From the NCBI GenBank assembly GCA_017556145.1, contig JAFZCU010000112.1, forward strand, positions 1 through 32,295: a stretch of DNA of 32,295 bases. The letters run 5' to 3'. This document shows, piece by piece, positions 421-15,075 of the stretch. The notes beneath the pieces were generated by a model that was given only the letters and a program-made list of their open reading frames with translations, was not told the origin of the DNA and searched no databases. Position 1 is the first letter of the stretch; every line of letters begins with the position of its first letter. The translations under genes and the position numbers were made by a program. This DNA is from Prevotella sp. (GTDB lineage: Bacteria > Bacteroidota > Bacteroidia > Bacteroidales > Bacteroidaceae).

Positions 421-1361
421 ATTGAAAGTCCTAATTTGTATGCTTCGTTTAGGGCAGCCTGCTTATTGAGCATTTGCGAAGCAATGAAAGCCTTTAACTT
501 GTCATTGAACATCTCAGGCTGCTCCATGTGGATGAAGTGTCCGCAAGTAGTCAGTTCCGTATAGTCGAGGTTGGGGTACAAACGCTGCATTTTCTGCTTG
601 TTGTCAGGATCAAGACCGCTGTTCTGCGTGCAGATGACCATCACTGGCTGAGAAATGCGACGATTCGTCCACCATTTTCTCTCCACAAGATGTTGCATCG
701 TGCTCGATGCTACATACTGTGGTGTCTCGGGCATCACTGACATGGCATAGTCGTTTATTTCCTGAGGAGTTTCTTTACCTGCCAATGACGACACAAAGCC
801 CGTGATGACATCGCGACATTCCGGACCATCGAAGGCATGACCGAACTGATTCACTGCCTCAACGTACTCTAGTGTCTCAGTACCATCGTAGAAACAATAT
901 ACACCGTCAACGTCCACCAATGTGCCTTTGTGACCTGTGGCCATCAGCGTCTGACGGCATACGGGCGTTCCAAGACTGTGACCTACAAAGACCGCATCCT
1001 TGATGCCGTTGGCATTTAAGACTTCATCTATGGCATGGGCAAAGAAATCAAGTGTGTATTCCACATGTGGCTTATCGCTTTGTCCGTATCCAGGCAGGTC
1101 AATGAATACAAGTTGCAGGTTTTTATTGTCTCGGAAAGCCTCGAACTGCTTCTCCCATGTGTTCATATCGCAGCCGAAGCCGTGAACGAAACAGATGGTC
1201 TTAGCATCTGAACCAGCCGACTCATTCCATATTTTATAATGTATGTGAATACTATCGTCGATAGTGGCGTATTCAGACTTCAGTTCGCTGAGCGTCTTCG
1301 GCTGGTTTCCACAACCTACCAGCAACAGGGCGAATAACAAATACAATACTATTTTCTTCAT
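417..1361 (-). CDS. alpha/beta-hydrolase lipoprotein
   Basis: This encodes a 314-residue secreted hydrolase. The N-terminus is a lipoprotein signal with Cys17 (LLLVGCGN), so the enzyme is probably membrane-anchored in the envelope. The alpha/beta-hydrolase fold is visible from the oxyanion-hole motif HGFG (residues 60-63), the nucleophile elbow GHSLG with Ser129, a probable acid at Asp251 or Asp253, and the catalytic His in CGHFIH (about 275). The frame stays open further upstream to 1586, but that stretch overlaps the acetyltransferase gene and lacks a signal peptide, so the start at 1361 was chosen. It begins in an ATGA overlap with the upstream gene and ends in another with the downstream gene. 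The substrate cannot be told from sequence. Confidence 0.88.
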   Translation of the reverse strand: MKKIVLYLLFALLLVGCGNQPKTLSELKSEYATIDDSIHIHYKIWNESAGSDAKTICFVHGFGCDMNTWEKQFEAFRDNKNLQLVFIDLPGYGQSDKPHVEYTLDFFAHAIDEVLNANGIKDAVFVGHSLGTPVCRQTLMATGHKGTLVDVDGVYCFYDGTETLEYVEAVNQFGHAFDGPECRDVITGFVSSLAGKETPQEINDYAMSVMPETPQYVASSTMQHLVERKWWTNRRISQPVMVICTQNSGLDPDNKQKMQRLYPNLDYTELTTCGHFIHMEQPEMFNDKLKAFIASQMLNKQAALNEAYKLGLSI

Positions 1362-1963
1362 ATAACTTCTTTTACCAATTTGACATTCTGTCTTATTACG
1401 TCGCGACTCGACAAAGCAGATGTGCACATCGCTTTGTACTCGCTGCTCTCTAATTTCATAACTTTGACTGGGCAGTCTGAGCCCACTTCCAGATTTGGAC
1501 ATAATGTTTCCTCGCCGGTATCTACAAAACCGCACTTTTCCATCACGCGACCAGATGCAGGGTTCGAAGGAAAGTAATCGCCCCAAAGTGTAATGAATCT
1601 CTTCTCATTGAAACAATAGTCTATGACCATCTGAAGTGCCTCCGTACAGATACCTTTACCCCAATACGGACGGGCTATCCAATATCCTACCTCCGCATGA
1701 TCTTCTGCAATCTTCAGGTTTGATGTGGATGCCGGGAGGTAGCCCACACATCCAATGGCTTCGCCTGAATCTTTCCATATTACCGCCCACATCCCTTCTG
1801 CGTTGAAGACTGTTCGAATAATGTCCAAACTTTCTTCCACAGACTTATGTGGTGGCCATCCTGCGCGAGGCCCAACTTCTGGGTCACTGGCGTATTTAAA
1901 CAGCGTCTCGGCATCACTATCCTGCCAAGGGCGTAATAATATTCTTTCTGTTTCCATCTTCAT
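1358..1963 (-). CDS. GNAT family N-acetyltransferase (RimJ/RimL type)
   Basis: This 201-residue protein opens with METERILLRPWQDSDAETLF, the standard start of the RimJ/RimL-type acetyltransferases (Acetyltransf_3). It continues with GCVGYLPA, VGYWIARPYWGKGICTEALQ, which is the acetyl-CoA pyrophosphate-binding loop (R/Q-x-x-G-x-G/A-like), and NPASGRVMEKCGF, the family's usual C-terminal motif. It should transfer an acetyl group from acetyl-CoA to an amine on a small molecule or protein. It is the first gene of a three-gene operon with a good Bacteroidetes promoter just upstream, and it overlaps the hydrolase gene by ATGA. An alternative start two codons in (MET) is possible. The acceptor is unknown. 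Confidence 0.9.
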   Translation of the reverse strand: MKMETERILLRPWQDSDAETLFKYASDPEVGPRAGWPPHKSVEESLDIIRTVFNAEGMWAVIWKDSGEAIGCVGYLPASTSNLKIAEDHAEVGYWIARPYWGKGICTEALQMVIDYCFNEKRFITLWGDYFPSNPASGRVMEKCGFVDTGEETLCPNLEVGSDCPVKVMKLESSEYKAMCTSALSSRDVIRQNVKLVKEVI

Positions 1964-2128: not shown

Positions 2129-2278
2129 TTATTTGTTTATAAAATATACGAGAGTAATCTGAGCTAACAGAATCAGCGGAAGTCCATACTTGAACTTCTT
2201 ATGCATCGTCTTGTGGTGAAAGACTTGCATGCCTAACAATGCGCCGATGCTTCCACCGATGACAGCAAGTTTCTGCCG
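2129..2278 (-). pseudogene. DUF1294 membrane protein, C-terminal remnant
   Basis: A 49-codon open stretch reads LAVIGGSIGALLGMQVFHHK and ends with LPLILLAQITLVYFINK and a stop. This is the characteristic C-terminal half of small DUF1294 membrane proteins, which are usually about 85-110 residues. The N-terminal transmembrane half is gone: an in-frame TAA lies directly upstream (2279-2281) and no start codon precedes the conserved part. Upstream sequence belongs to a lipoprotein leader and an inserted repeat in a different frame, so a deletion or rearrangement probably joined them. Taken as a non-functional remnant. Confidence 0.75.
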
Positions 2279-2468
2279 TTATTTCACTCTTTGTGGTATT
2301 GGCTTCGCCTTCGTCCGTCACGACTCGGCCATCCAAGCGAGCTTCTTGCGTCCCTTCGGTAGCAAGCGGCATAGCCGAGCGGGCTCTGCTCTCGCTGCTC
2401 TGTCCGTTGCTGCCACATGAGCATAATAACGTAGCCATCAATATGAATGAAAAAGCGATATGTTTCAT
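2199..2468 (-). pseudogene. chimeric lipoprotein leader fused to coding repeat and out-of-frame DUF1294 sequence
   Basis: The 89-codon frame starts with a convincing lipoprotein signal (MKHIAFSFILMATLLCSCGS, lipid-attachment Cys16 or Cys18). It then runs straight into the coding repeat (SSESR ... RLDGRVVTDEGEAN) and finishes by reading the DUF1294 remnant in the wrong frame (CCHRWKHRRIVRHAS). No conserved mature domain is present. It looks like the 5' end of a lost lipoprotein gene, truncated by the same event that beheaded the DUF1294 gene. It could still be translated into a short lipopeptide, but there is no sign of selection on its tail. Confidence 0.5.
2299..2408 (-). repeat. coding repeat, copy A (long form)
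   Basis: On the minus strand this has a left block (2388-2408) matching copy B at 18 of 21 bases, a middle block of about 43 bases absent from copy B, and a right core (2299-2344) that is identical to copy B over all 46 bases. The core is translated as RLDGRVVTDEGEA in the same frame in both copies. Copies A and B lie about 0.75 kb apart in opposite orientation. Confidence 0.85.
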
Positions 2469-2540
2469 ATACAAATATGCGTAATACATAAATACACTTA
2501 AAACTATCGGCAAAGTTAGTGATAATTACGGAATTATCGC

Positions 2541-2548
2541 TAAATTTG
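2541..2548 (+). promoter_or_regulatory. -7 box upstream of the SDR remnant / secreted protein gene
   Basis: TAAATTTG fits the TAnnTTTG consensus and lies about 50 bases before the ATG at 2598. No clean TTG -33 box is seen at the expected distance, so the call is tentative. Confidence 0.4.
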
Positions 2549-2597
2549 CACCAAGAATTAGCATTGTTTATAAAGTAACCCAACAAAATCTGCGCTT

Positions 2598-2726
2598 ATG
2601 GATTCTTTTAAGGATAAAGTAGCCGTCGTGACGGGAGGTGCCATCGTCAACATCTCCTCATCGCGCGACCGCATGACCCATCAGATGATCTATCATGGCG
2701 ATAACGGCTGGAAGTTGGAAATATGA
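2598..2726 (+). pseudogene. short-chain dehydrogenase remnant with internal deletion
   Basis: A 42-codon frame reads MDSFKDKVAVVTGGA, the unmistakable first strand and glycine-loop start of a short-chain dehydrogenase/reductase, and then jumps directly to IVNISSS. That resembles the segment around the catalytic serine, normally about 120 residues later. The tail (RDRMTHQMIYHGDNGWKLEI) is not recognised as SDR. The deletion kept the frame open, and the stop overlaps the next ATG as ATGA, so the remnant may act as a leader that feeds ribosomes to the following gene. It lacks the Tyr-x3-Lys site and cannot be an active oxidoreductase. Confidence 0.7.
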
Positions 2727-3409
2727 AGAAGGGATTACTTATATCGATAGCGTTGATATTTTCAGTTGCAGTATCGGCACAGGATGTTGATGGATTCGTC
2801 AACAGACAGTTGCAAACCTATCCGAAGTCGCGGCTGCTTGACATTTACAAGTCGTGCTTCCAGGACTATATGGGTGCCGAACATCTGGTGTCGGACAGAC
2901 AAAGGGTTAAGGCATATTTGGATGAAGAGTTGAATACTACCAGCCTTGATGACCTCATGCCCTGGTACTACGAGCCATGCGGGATAGACAGCAGCTATTA
3001 TCGTGTCAGCATTCGAGCCATCAAGGAAAGTATTGTTTCAGAAGACCTGTTGCTTAATGCCTTCATCCGAAGTGCTAATGGACGGAGTAGCGAGAGCCGC
3101 CAAGCTCGCTTGGATGGCCGAGTCGTGACGGACGAAGGCGAAGCCAACTCTAAGAAGCGACCTTCTGTTGAGTCGTGGAGTGAACGATGGCACAAGATTA
3201 TTGGTACTATTGACCAAATGAAACTGGATATGCCCAACTATCAAGAGGACAAACAATTCATAGACAGCGTCCTTTCCGTCGGGAAATACGCCATCAGCCA
3301 CTCGCCAGACTACCGTGAGACCTATCATCCTCACTACAGAATCGTAGAGCGTAGCATCTTTGAAAAAGAAATCAAAAGTCTTATAGATAAGAAAAAAATA
3401 ACACAATGA
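2723..3409 (+). CDS. secreted conserved protein of unknown function carrying an in-frame repeat
   Basis: The 228-residue product has a clear signal peptide (MKKGLLISIALIFSVAVSAQ). The mature part has motifs I recall from an uncharacterised Bacteroidales family: YPKSRLLDIYKSCFQDYMG, GAEHLVSD, YYRVSIRAIKE, and HPHYRIVER with FEKEI near the C-terminus. The conserved text is interrupted around residues 119-142 by the coding repeat (copy B), after which the family sequence resumes in frame (PSVESWSERWHKI). The protein thus seems to have tolerated an insertion, probably in a surface loop. It starts inside the SDR remnant's stop and overlaps the nitroreductase remnant at its end, both as ATGA. Function is unknown. 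Confidence 0.8.
   Translation: MKKGLLISIALIFSVAVSAQDVDGFVNRQLQTYPKSRLLDIYKSCFQDYMGAEHLVSDRQRVKAYLDEELNTTSLDDLMPWYYEPCGIDSSYYRVSIRAIKESIVSEDLLLNAFIRSANGRSSESRQARLDGRVVTDEGEANSKKRPSVESWSERWHKIIGTIDQMKLDMPNYQEDKQFIDSVLSVGKYAISHSPDYRETYHPHYRIVERSIFEKEIKSLIDKKKITQ
3077..3147 (+). repeat. coding repeat, copy B (short form), inside the secreted protein gene
   Basis: The left block 3077-3097 matches copy A at 18 of 21 bases, and the core 3102-3147 matches copy A at 46 of 46. Only about 4 bases separate the blocks, against about 43 in copy A. It is read in frame as NGRSSESRQARLDGRVVTDE followed by GEAN, within an otherwise conserved protein. Confidence 0.85.
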
Positions 3410-12273: not shown

Positions 12274-12294
12274 ATTCACTCAGTTTTTTTTTAT

Positions 12295-12389
12295 TCACAC
12301 AGATCTCACAGATTTTTTAATCCTCTGGATTATTCCGAGTCAATTGTCGCTTGCGACAACTATCTGTGAGATCTGTGGGATCTGTGTGA
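12295..12389. repeat. three-hairpin repeat, copy 1
   Basis: Outer arms (12295-12313 left, 12362-12389 right) built from CACAGATCT/AGATCTGTG units enclose two small hairpins: AATCC-TCT-GGATT (12319-12331) and TTGTCGC-TT-GCGACAA (12344-12359). It shares layout and inner stems with copy 2 at 13186-13289 in the same orientation. The left arm is 9 bases shorter than in copy 2. Its right edge lies 17 bases from the stop codon of nudC on the minus strand. Confidence 0.9.
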
Positions 12390-12406
12390 CAAAATCTATC
12401 TGTGTG

Positions 12407-13171
12407 CTATTCGCCAGTCCAGGCATCGAGGAGCATGCGGGCGATGGAGAGTTTCTCGGGGATATCAGGCAGATTGTCTTTTCTGAACCATCCCCCTTTG
12501 GCTATCTCACTTTGTTGCAGGTGAATCTCGCCTGAGATATAGTCGGCATTGAAGCCTACCATCAGTCCGCAAGGATAGGGCCAGGGCTGAGAGCCGAAAT
12601 AGCGGATGTTGGTGATGGTGACGCCCGTTTCCTCAAGGGCCTCACGGGCCACGGCCTCTTCAAGGGTCTCACCTGTCTCCACAAATCCTGCCACCAGTCC
12701 GTAATAATCGCGTTTGAAGTTCTTGGCACGCACCAGGAGCACCTCATCGTCACGATGGATCAGCACGATGACGGCTGTAGCCAGCTGTGGCCAGATCTCC
12801 TTGCCACATTCCGTGCATTTCTTCGAGATGTCCGTATCCATGCGCATCGGCGCACCGCAGACGCCGCAATACTTCGTGTTCTGGTCCCAGTACAGCAGTT
12901 CCTTACATTTGCCTGCCTTCAGATAGAGGGCCTTCGGCAGTTTGAAATAGCTCTGCCTGAGTCCGCACATCTCGTAGCGGGGATTATCCGTCACAGGGGC
13001 ATCGATGCGGTATGTCTTCACCGCGATGCCTTCCAGCGGTGTGATGTTCATCACGTTCGTCCAGGGCTTCACCTGCGTAGGCGGCTCTTCCTGCAATGGT
13101 ATCGTGTAGCTGCCGTCGGCGCATTTCTCCAACAGCAGATCCTCCTTACAAAAAACGAAATAGTATCTCAT
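12407..13171 (-). CDS. nudC: NADH pyrophosphatase / NAD-cap hydrolase
   Basis: NudC cleaves NADH to NMNH and AMP and can remove NAD caps from RNA. The 254-residue protein has the typical order: a beta-rich N-terminal domain, a four-cysteine zinc ribbon (CGVCG at about residue 97, CTEC about 16 residues later), and a Nudix domain with a complete Nudix box (G-x5-E-x7-REALEETG). The signature SQPWPYPCGLM follows. The family consensus is SQPWPFPxSxM, so the usual Phe is Tyr and Ser is replaced near the end; substrate preference may be slightly altered. It follows the 5'-nucleotidase gene on the same strand with a three-hairpin repeat between them, and has no visible promoter of its own. Confidence 0.93.
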   Translation of the reverse strand: MRYYFVFCKEDLLLEKCADGSYTIPLQEEPPTQVKPWTNVMNITPLEGIAVKTYRIDAPVTDNPRYEMCGLRQSYFKLPKALYLKAGKCKELLYWDQNTKYCGVCGAPMRMDTDISKKCTECGKEIWPQLATAVIVLIHRDDEVLLVRAKNFKRDYYGLVAGFVETGETLEEAVAREALEETGVTITNIRYFGSQPWPYPCGLMVGFNADYISGEIHLQQSEIAKGGWFRKDNLPDIPEKLSIARMLLDAWTGE

Positions 13172-13185
13172 ATATATTTTTAACT

Positions 13186-13289
13186 CACACAGATCTCGCA
13201 GATCTCACAGATTTTTTAATCCTTCGGATTATTTCATAGCATTTGTCGCTTGCGACAACTATCTGTGAGATCCGTGAGATCTGTGTGAC
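13186..13289. repeat. three-hairpin repeat, copy 2
   Basis: 28-base arms (13186-13213 and 13262-13289) pair with only two non-matching positions and enclose AATCC-TTC-GGATT and TTGTCGC-TT-GCGACAA. Compared with copy 1, the inner stems are identical, while most differences fall in the small loop and in the linker between the inner hairpins. It fills the gap between the 5'-nucleotidase stop (17 bases away) and the nudC start. Confidence 0.9.
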
Positions 13290-13305
13290 ATAATTATTCT
13301 GCGTG

Positions 13306-15075
13306 TTATTTCTCTCCGAACAGGATCTTGTAATCGCGCTCGAGGGCGGGCTTTGTCCATTCCTCAGGCACGAACCTCCAGTTGTGATTCGGCTGCGGAT
13401 TTACCACACCCATCTTACGGATTTCCTCTGTCAGATAATGGCGCTGGTCCAGATCGGTGTGCCAGATGACGCGACGCTCCAGTTCATCCTTGGGGATGCC
13501 GGCTCCGACTGTCAGCAGCTCACCGCCACCATTGGCACGGTAGCTGTTCATCACCACCTTATACCATTTCTTCTCGTCGAAGGGCTCGCCGTTCGACATC
13601 CGGAGAATCTTCACTTTCTGGCCGTCAGGCTTCGTCACGTCCACTTCATAGTCGATGCCACAGGCAGAGTCGAAGTTAAAGGTGTAGTATTGGAATCCCG
13701 TACGCTGCTGGTCGCCCGTGGTCTTGTCATTCAGTCTGAGGGCATGATCCTCGGGCTTTGTCATCGTGTTGGTCCACATGTCGTAGCTGTACTCCAGATG
13801 CTTGCGCACCTCCTCACCAGTCAGTCGCAGCATGAACATCAGGTTCTCAAACCGGTAGAGCTTGAACATATCGCCCTGTGTCACATTGCCGGCCTGAATC
13901 ACGCTGTTGAAGGCCAACGGGGCATTGAATGAGATCTCGGCACCCGAAATTTTCATCTGCAGGTTGTGGATTAGGTCGGTGAAGGCGGAGTTCCCGAAAA
14001 AGCCCTCACGCGAATAGACGGGATTTTCAAAACGTCCTATCTTACGGCCTACGTATTGCTTCACGGCATCGATCTTGGGCTGAAAATAGCTGAGCATTTC
14101 TTCGTCAATGGCCTCGTTCTTCACGCTGACAATCTCGCCCTTGATATCCTTCTTCACCAGATGGCCGTTCTGATACGACAGTTCTATCTCGGCCTCTGCC
14201 ACATTCTCCACATGACAGCTGGGGTCGAGACAGAGCACTTTCTTGCCGGCCTTGTTGGTGATCCACTCCTTGTGCACCTGATGGTCGTGTCCGAAGAAGA
14301 TGATGTCGAAGCCGGGCACTTCTTTGGCGACGGTCTCCGTGCCGTCTTCCTCGTATTCATCCGTCTTGATGCCGCCGTTCAGGCCGGAATGGAAAAGACC
14401 GATTATCAGGTCGGGCCGCTCCACCTCCTGCACGTATTTCACCCATTTCCTGGCGCTGCTGGCCATCTCTTCGAAGGCCATGCCTTTCCAGATCGACTGG
14501 TTCAGCCAGTTGGGAATGGCAGGCGTTAGCAGACCGATCACGCAGATCTTCACGCCGTCGATATAGTGTGTGTAATAGGGTTGCAGCCCATCGTACACGT
14601 CCTTCGGATTAGCAGAATCCTCCTTAGATCCTTCTTTCACGATGTTGGCTCCCACCAATGGGCAGCGCACCTCACTGATCCATTTGTCGTAGACCTTGTG
14701 TCCAGGCTCGAAATCGTGGTTGCCGATGCCCTCCACGTCGTATTTCATATAGTTAATCACCGATGCGGCCAGGTTCTCTTCGTTGGGCATCACGTAGTTC
14801 GACCAATACACACAGGGCTGGCCTTGTAGGATGTCACCATTATCGATCAACAGCAGGTTCTTGCCATATTGCTGGCGCTGCTTCTTAATATAGGTATTGG
14901 CTCTGACGAGCGTTCCGTCGATGGGTTTGTTGTTCATGAAATCCCAGGGGAAGAAATGGCCGTGCACATCGCTCGTCTCAATCACTTTCAGCCTCACGGT
15001 CTTCGTGGCAGGCTGCGCTGTCGCTGTCATTATCATAGCCATTAAGGCTGTCGTTAGTAAGGTAAATCTTTTCAT
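13306..15075 (-). CDS. secreted 5'-nucleotidase / bifunctional metallophosphatase
   Basis: The 589-residue protein has a signal peptide (MKRFTLLTTALMAMIMTATA) and acts outside the cytoplasm on nucleotides or 2',3'-cyclic nucleotides. The N-terminal calcineurin-like domain shows all metal motifs: ETSDVHGHFFPWD, DNGDILQG, GNHDFEPG, GLFHSG and FGHDHQVH. The C-terminal 5'-nucleotidase domain has FGNSAFTDLIHN and NGGGELLTVGAG, which form the substrate pocket. The frame is open further upstream to 15192, but only the ATG at 15075 gives a signal peptide and it lies about 15 bases after the inferred transcription start. Co-transcription with nudC suggests combined nucleotide scavenging. Confidence 0.93.
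   Translation of the reverse strand: MKRFTLLTTALMAMIMTATAQPATKTVRLKVIETSDVHGHFFPWDFMNNKPIDGTLVRANTYIKKQRQQYGKNLLLIDNGDILQGQPCVYWSNYVMPNEENLAASVINYMKYDVEGIGNHDFEPGHKVYDKWISEVRCPLVGANIVKEGSKEDSANPKDVYDGLQPYYTHYIDGVKICVIGLLTPAIPNWLNQSIWKGMAFEEMASSARKWVKYVQEVERPDLIIGLFHSGLNGGIKTDEYEEDGTETVAKEVPGFDIIFFGHDHQVHKEWITNKAGKKVLCLDPSCHVENVAEAEIELSYQNGHLVKKDIKGEIVSVKNEAIDEEMLSYFQPKIDAVKQYVGRKIGRFENPVYSREGFFGNSAFTDLIHNLQMKISGAEISFNAPLAFNSVIQAGNVTQGDMFKLYRFENLMFMLRLTGEEVRKHLEYSYDMWTNTMTKPEDHALRLNDKTTGDQQRTGFQYYTFNFDSACGIDYEVDVTKPDGQKVKILRMSNGEPFDEKKWYKVVMNSYRANGGGELLTVGAGIPKDELERRVIWHTDLDQRHYLTEEIRKMGVVNPQPNHNWRFVPEEWTKPALERDYKILFGEK

Follow-up and report, generated by a model that had tools for sequence, protein, structure and literature searches.

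A widespread, structured mobile element of Bacteroidales with a life style inside genes like that of the Rickettsia palindromic elements

Introduction

Rickettsia palindromic elements (RPEs) are hairpin-forming repeats that lie in frame in unrelated genes and also between genes, with a reported length of about 150 bp (available portions of PMC10969869 and PMC3733652). Other small repeats come close to them in one respect or another. The repetitive extragenic palindromic (REP) elements tagged with GTAG or CGTC are 20–40 bp long, have one stem-loop and a terminal tag, and are mostly intergenic, often as inverted dimers (PMC3733652, in part). Miniature inverted-repeat transposable elements (MITEs) are small, non-autonomous and dispersed (excerpts of the review PMC10969869), and PARCELs are palindromic DNA encoding about 25 residues, arranged in tandem, that make up repeat domains of particular surface-type proteins (excerpts of PMC2996958). 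Here, a further repeat family is described, which is called F1 in this work and has three copies (A, B and C) in a stretch of 32,295 nucleotides from Prevotella sp. (contig JAFZCU010000112.1 of assembly GCA_017556145.1, positions 1 to 32,295). This whole stretch is referred to as the window, and the genome that it belongs to as the own genome; L-, G- and C-numbers are labels for loci, genomes and contigs in this analysis.

F1 is a real, widespread and structured mobile element with an RPE-like life style inside genes. Set against the available parts of the descriptions cited above, it resembles RPEs and similar Wolbachia elements in being a hairpin repeat found in frame in unrelated genes as well as between genes, with no autonomous mover found here. 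It differs from them in its phylum, its length of about 70 nt, a two-hairpin anatomy with compensatory changes, its AA target and its (T)CAA end. The two are likened by behaviour and description, and F1 can be said to behave like an RPE in that sense. With intragenic REP elements it shares the small palindrome, the presence of some copies within open reading frames (ORFs) and compensatory stem changes within families, but F1 is 69–77 nt long, has two hairpins, occurs in direct arrays and carries no consistent tag near its ends (GTAG in 15 and CGTC in 50 of 231 copies). Like a MITE it is small, non-autonomous and dispersed; unlike one, it has no terminal inverted repeat of a parent insertion sequence (IS) that could be found here, and neither a parent nor a longer target duplication was seen. 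The likeness to PARCELs consists in the palindrome and the roughly 25 residues, and the single insertions in unrelated genes set F1 apart from them by description. Searches of the open PubMed Central literature did not bring up an earlier account of an element of this kind from Bacteroidales, and F1 sequence strings occur there only in papers that are, by title, on other organisms and topics.

F1 in the window

The copies in the window, together with a second repeat called F2, are as follows.

2299..2408, minus strand: F1 copy A, of the short-stem subtype, with F2 inserted in it (sequence matches and covariance model; F2-less ortholog in L184)
2343..2381, minus strand: F2 repeat of 39 nt, CGCTCGGCTATGCCGCTTGCTACCGAAGGGACGCAAGAA, nested within copy A (sequence comparison)
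3077..3147, plus strand: F1 copy B, in frame within ORF 2723–3409, adding 23 residues, GRSSESRQARLDGRVVTDEGEAN (model hit, empty sites and protein comparison)
1380..1456, minus strand: F1 copy C, 23-nt-stem subtype, read in frame close to the C-terminal end of an ORF for a GNAT acetyltransferase

A first-pass annotation of the window had reported A and B as two inverted copies of a short repeat that are read in the same frame in unrelated genes. Both copies are real. Their inverted 46-base match (2299–2344 with 3102–3147) is 100% identical, the left 21 bases have three mismatches, and the middles measure 43 bases in A and 4 in B. Both cores encode RLDGRVVTDEGEA, and the ORFs that they lie in (2199–2468, minus; 2723–3409, plus) are unrelated. 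The limits given for the two copies agree to the base with the AA...CAA unit as defined by 215 copies and by empty sites. Copy C was overlooked, and the inverted layout of A and B, exact as it is, is incidental, since close F1 pairs (<1.5 kb) in the fetched loci are mostly direct (45 direct, 6 inverted).

Two hairpins maintained by compensatory changes

The F1 unit measures 69–77 nt from AA to CAA, varies only modestly in length (model lengths are mostly 67–74 nt) and consists of one long imperfect hairpin followed by a small 3' hairpin, in columns 3–54 and 61–71 of an alignment of 12 copies from the own genome. In these 12 copies, 94.5% of the cells are paired and 17 of 22 pairs have changed on both sides; the double changes number 41, as against 10.8 in shuffles and 2–8 in slid controls. 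In a larger alignment of 44 copies from many records, thinned, free of gaps and 77 nt long, the 24 core pairs are 83.6% paired, with 179 double changes compared to a mean of 54 in 500 shuffles (maximum 75) and 34–46 in slid controls. The base pairing of F1 is maintained via compensatory changes. The long stem extends to two bases past the left AA (75% and 84% paired), and it contains recurring G.A/A.G double mismatches, at columns 5–6 with 51–52 (39 of 44 copies) and 12–13 with 44–45 (35–36 of 44). A third one, at columns 1–2 with 55–56, is present in 25–26 of the 44 and is often replaced by normal pairs. Like the RPEs, F1 is therefore a hairpin-forming dispersed repeat. With Rfam, only two tRNAs were found in the window at gathering scores, and the F1 copy in L042 gave no match at E ≤ 1.

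Six loci of the own genome (L058–L061, L063 and L064) hold an F1-like subfamily with AAGGCTGCGATT(G/A)AGCGAGAGC on the left and GAGCGTGAGCAGGCTCGACC ahead of the small hairpin, and some of these copies are in frame (AAIEREQ...EREQARPKV).

Distribution

The own genome is a 3.46 Mb draft in 242 contigs, 82.7% complete and with 5.0% contamination. The F1 covariance model gives at least 53 hits in it at E ≤ 1 and 41 at E ≤ 0.001 (best 150 of 1332 candidates). Across the genus, 51 of 60 genomes have hits with model R1 at E ≤ 0.001 and nine have none, and a single genome, G049, reaches at least 130 hits at E ≤ 0.01 (best 150 of 2025 candidates). In an order-wide sample of 198 genomes, ten have hits at E ≤ 1e-6, one of the ten being the own genome (best 24 candidates per genome); the nine others come from nine other families at 39–55 bits, and these look like diverged relatives. 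An exact-pattern scan of named Bacteroidales genomes returned at least 119 stretches. By title, the matches listed include at least 64 from Prevotellaceae, at least 33 from Bacteroidaceae, at least one each from Paludibacteraceae and Muribaculaceae, and at least 20 without a family name. All F1 records among the matches listed are Bacteroidales or unclassified by title, and the carriers include the isolates Phocaeicola coprophilus DSM 18228 and Prevotella sp. khp7. F1 is a dispersed family of Bacteroidales whose copies are most plentiful in Prevotella-like genomes from rumen and gut. The first-pass annotation had allowed for the case that only two copies exist anywhere; there are hundreds.

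On contig C101 of the own genome, at 31–50 kb (L040), there is an island of nested small repeats that includes F1, F2, longer repeated segments (e.g. around GGCTCGCAAGCCTGTGCCC) and CACAGATCTCACAGAT arrays.

Insertion after AA and empty sites

F1 stands directly 3' of AA and its own end is (T)CAA. Over 215 copies, the two bases of the left flank are A in 90% and 84%, and the last two of the element are A in 98% and 95%. For 15 copies of the own genome (19 had been assembled), the joined flanks were searched in 299 genus genomes, 205 of which gave some match. Homologues cross the junction without F1 in aligned stretches for 11 of the 15; among the remaining four, L058 matched only a filled copy in the own genome and three had no match. 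In the cleanest alignments the net insertion is 75, 72, 70 or 69 nt, placed right after an AA that is left single in the empty site. In the empty-site alignments the junctions repeat AA and nothing more, with no longer target duplication seen. Elements of the IS200/IS605 type likewise insert 3' of a short sequence that is fixed, with no longer target duplication.

Of F1 pairs under 200 nt, 32 of 33 are direct and 18 are separated by only 0–2 nt. As F1 ends in (T)CAA and inserts after AA, head-to-tail copies 0–2 nt apart can result, as if the element's own TCAA served as the target. The idea that F1 copies a piece of its target into the arm of the 3' hairpin was dropped: L055 has GTCAA on both sides, but by eye this is not general.

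F1 inside genes

To place F1 relative to genes, a codon model made for this work was trained on 412 long ORFs; it is not a published gene caller. The 257 distinct copies were gathered by the exact-pattern scan and from the best model hits, and the sample therefore leans to intact copies. Of these, 185 could be placed (flanks of 400 nt or more on either side, model length 55–82); the length rule leaves out copy A, and copy C was classed as "inter?". Sixty-two copies at 58 loci are in genes, about one third, 16 lie across a gene end, and 107 are intergenic. The in-gene copies are almost all in sense orientation (60 sense, 2 antisense), as are those at gene ends (15 and 1). A length that keeps the frame is found in 56 of the 62 in-gene copies as against 45 of the 107 intergenic ones (Fisher 1.8e-10). 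After removal of a hand-listed set of loci, nearly all of which are from G049 (L140, from another genome, was included by mistake), the counts are 55 of 61 and 45 of 90 (1.9e-7). In an independent codon test that uses the flanks only and ignores the element (W=150, threshold 3), 20 sense copies are in frame and 4 shifted, and the antisense copies give 2 and 1.

In the 60 sense in-gene copies, the first A of the AA falls on codon position 1, 2 and 3 in 21, 34 and 5 cases; going by how often AA occurs at each position in long ORFs, 30.4, 18.4 and 11.1 would be expected (p 5.9e-5). Of the three frames, the favoured one is the most hydrophilic, with a mean hydropathy of −1.46, as against −0.93 and −0.33 for the others, the last being the rare frame. 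Because the length of in-gene F1 keeps the frame, the host protein is predicted to gain about 23–25 mostly hydrophilic residues. A more general suggestion, that all sense frames of F1 are kept open, did not hold; over the 185 copies, the three frames from AA are free of stops in 89, 107 and 86.

The comparison with RPEs that the first-pass annotation had drawn, of an element that lands in coding sequence of unrelated hosts and stays translatable, is borne out by the strand and length bias, by the empty sites and by protein comparisons, and in-frame presence in unrelated protein genes is a property of F1 as it is of RPEs. The shared frame is true of A and B, but in the larger sample two frames are common and only the third is rare. 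The annotation had also held that its idea would suffer if copies outside genes greatly outnumbered those in frame with no frame preference. Intergenic copies are indeed the more numerous, but within genes the preference for strand and length is strong.

Individual genes

The ORFs that carry the three copies of the window are the following.

2723..3409, plus strand: host ORF of copy B, 228 aa, with a signal-peptide-like start (by eye)
2199..2468, minus strand: ORF of copy A, with a lipoprotein-like start, MKHIAFSFILMATLLCSCGSN (by eye)
1358..1963, minus strand: host ORF of copy C, a GNAT acetyltransferase (PF13302 and PF00583 in Pfam)

Pfam gave no match for the ORFs of copies A and B. The gene of copy B is present in 15 of 150 genus genomes, and 14 of these cover the site. 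F1 is present there in the own genome, G013 and G063, and absent in 11 of the 14 (ten were read as protein, and G019 was judged by its two-part match). The filled site reads FIRSAN-GRSSESRQARLDGRVVTDEGEAN-SKKRPSVESW and the empty one FIRSAN-SETRPSVESW. The site of copy C is also filled in G032 (L324), and homologues without F1 were found in L292 and L314; in record L115 the same GNAT gene has another F1 insertion in the middle of the protein, TGE-PMEQRELSDAGISSAESRQRSTEGQ-PIGCVGY. In a LytTR response regulator (L042), F1 follows residue 22 and the Pfam receiver match begins at profile position 29. This element is identical in G013 (73 of 73 bases) while the flanks differ at 19 of 150 and 37 of 150 bases.

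In a gene that is cupin-like by eye, F1 occurs at the same site in five records, and the element is 91.8–97.3% identical in all ten pairs while the upstream host DNA is 62–84% identical. For comparison, 368 other in-gene F1 pairs of equal length have a mean identity of 74.7%, with 1.9% at 92% or above. In the cupin-like insert, changes on both sides of the stem include T-A to C-G and T-A to A-T. These data fit one old insertion that would be changing more slowly than its host gene, and either constraint or gene conversion may be the reason, each being compatible with the data. A broader ortholog comparison by flank identity is noisy, as non-orthologous pairs make up many of the 136 and some of the 18 in-gene ones, and only checked genes are used here.

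A second repeat nested in copy A

The first-pass annotation had taken the different middles of A and B for long and short forms of one modular element. This part did not stand. Searching the own genome with copy A gave 39 matches at E ≤ 10, the weakest of which may be chance, and 25 at E ≤ 0.001; six of these 25 are of the F1 type (self included) and 19 cover only the extra middle of A, which is F2, a separate repeat. A pattern for the 24-nt core of F2 is found in 33 of 100 genus genomes and occurs 17 times in the own genome, and a reversed control pattern gave no match in the same scan. The relative of the copy A ORF in L184 (an uncultured rumen Prevotella) is lipoprotein-like and has F1 without F2 directly after its lipobox-like start; the copy A ORF parts from this relative after TTKSEITA. 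Since the L184 ortholog has F1 and no F2 at the same place, copy A is an F1 with F2 nested inside its hairpin.

F2 itself is a small two-hairpin repeat, with own-genome loci L003, L005–L011, L013–L019, L021–L023, L025 and L027. By eye, some copies have direct repeats of 5–7 nt at their ends (L010, L016), and the one in L019 resembles an in-frame insertion. In L017 (contig C125 of the own genome, near 31920), an F2 copy is located between the inverted flanks AAAGTACACAAAA...TTTTGTGTACTTT.

Two further observations concern the window. Positions 2199–2730 contain what appear by eye to be gene remnants, namely a lipoprotein-like start with F1, a stretch that differs from the L184 relative, and a short dehydrogenase-like start at 2598. 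Positions 12287–12411 and 13177–13310 contain a 117-nt direct repeat (85%) with CACACAGATCTCACAGAT motifs and inverted arms, and similar motifs are found on contig C101.

How F1 may move and why it may be kept

F1 is probably a non-autonomous mobile palindromic element of Bacteroidales that lies in frame within genes and is moved in trans. An enzyme acting in trans would move it, and selection would remove copies of the wrong orientation, length or frame, with the result that the remaining set consists of tolerated in-frame insertions. The hairpin would be kept because it is recognised by the mobilising machinery or through a function at the RNA level. As to the mover, a single-strand HUH/Y1 transposase similar to that of IS200/IS605 is a guess that is offered tentatively, and it is favoured because in F1 a hairpin adjoins a short target of fixed sequence, without a longer target duplication. 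In IS200/IS605 ends, too, a hairpin lies beside a short fixed target with no long duplication, and a guide sequence at the foot of the hairpin is complementary to the cleavage site. Unlike such ends, F1 has no tnpA in cis and no evident guide pairing. Among ORFs within 1.5 kb of F1 no recurrent transposase was seen, the 25 largest clusters being ordinary genes by eye, and a mover encoded in cis was rejected on this ground.

Several results weigh against this explanation. The 31 Y1_Tnp stretches contain only one strong and one weak F1 hit. PF01797 is not significantly associated with F1 abundance: it occurs in 25 of the 38 genomes that have five or more F1 hits and in 10 of the other 22 (p 0.18). 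Seven genomes in which F1 has 12 or more hits have no PF01797 hit. There is no evident IS605-type pairing to the CAA end, as only 7 of 231 copies have TTG close to where the small hairpin starts at its foot, and one has TTGA (the position of the search window is approximate unless the length is 73). The flank-only codon test is weaker at other settings (29:11 and 24:12; 14:2 at the strictest), and the in-gene peptide is a prediction from reading frames. Of the 62 elements inside genes, 50 have one antisense frame open and 53 have another, so that stop codons alone do not explain why antisense copies in genes are scarce.

This last point is also one of several in favour of a different explanation, in which F1 would persist chiefly as a structured RNA module in transcripts (for stability, termination or processing) and would lie in genes as a side effect. 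Where an intergenic copy is located between co-directional genes, the sense strand is favoured (54 to 27, p 0.0036), as it is in one-sided flank calls (37+41 sense, 8+9 antisense). One pair is G-T in 34 of 44 copies, and the mean folding z is −2.6 for 80 copies against mononucleotide shuffles; the cupin-like insert changes slowly (92–97% identical) and shows compensatory stem changes. However, leaving out the G049 set weakens the intergenic bias (42 to 26, p 0.068), no Rfam family was found, and the slow change can also be explained by gene conversion or by selection on the peptide. For copies A and B, dinucleotide shuffles fold just as well (z −0.55 and 0.09); single-copy folding is uninformative in these two and the alignment is decisive for structure. 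On balance this is an unlikely account of the family as a whole. A bolder combination, in which F1 is at once mobile DNA, structured RNA and a translated, frame-fitted peptide, with the structure selected inside genes and a mover other than RAYT, is doubtful; it predicts the extreme conservation of the cupin-like insert together with its compensatory stem changes, for which gene conversion is the main alternative.

Movement via an RNA copy that is reverse-transcribed in trans, in the manner of a short interspersed nuclear element, would be in keeping with the sense bias relative to genes, the RNA-like pairing, and insertion at AA of an element that ends in CAA. There is no A-tail, and the aligned empty sites have no long target duplication. 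This route is quite improbable.

In REP systems the RAYT (Y1) transposase gene is linked to the repeat and flanked by it, and two REPs in inverted orientation form one unit, the REPIN. Hairpin repeats and RAYT-type genes do share these genomes, with PF01797 in 35 of 60, so F1 might be imagined as a REP element moved by a resident RAYT. The Y1 stretches mentioned above, the co-occurrence and a protein search gave no link: the RAYT protein of the own genome has no match at E ≤ 1 in the F1-rich genomes G049, G019, G027, G035, G043 and G047, it finds no more than fragments in G032 and G020, and at four further Y1 stretches of G049 there is a single F1, about 4.5 kb from the gene. The scarcity of GTAG and CGTC near F1 ends speaks against it as well, and the direct rather than inverted pairs are at odds with a REPIN. 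A RAYT/REP origin was rejected as a very improbable one. Many RAYT/IS200-type genes in the Y1_Tnp stretches L250–L274 have inverted 14-mers of their own on both sides, unrelated to F1 and F2, which look like other REP systems of the genus.

Finally, that ordinary repeats, contamination or assembly joins produce the pattern is hardly credible in spite of the draft state of the own genome, as F1 is found in most of the genus genomes and in isolate records, and covariation and empty sites cannot arise from assembly.

Significance

F1 has numerous copies, a target that is defined, empty sites that are clean and covariation that can be measured, and it has them in gut and rumen Bacteroidales that are culturable and partly genetically tractable. 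With such hosts and such clean features, the movement of the element, its translation and tolerance, and the selection of its structure inside genes become testable. There is also a direct effect on annotation: inserts of about 25 residues in Prevotella proteins can be mobile DNA, as in the receiver match of L042.
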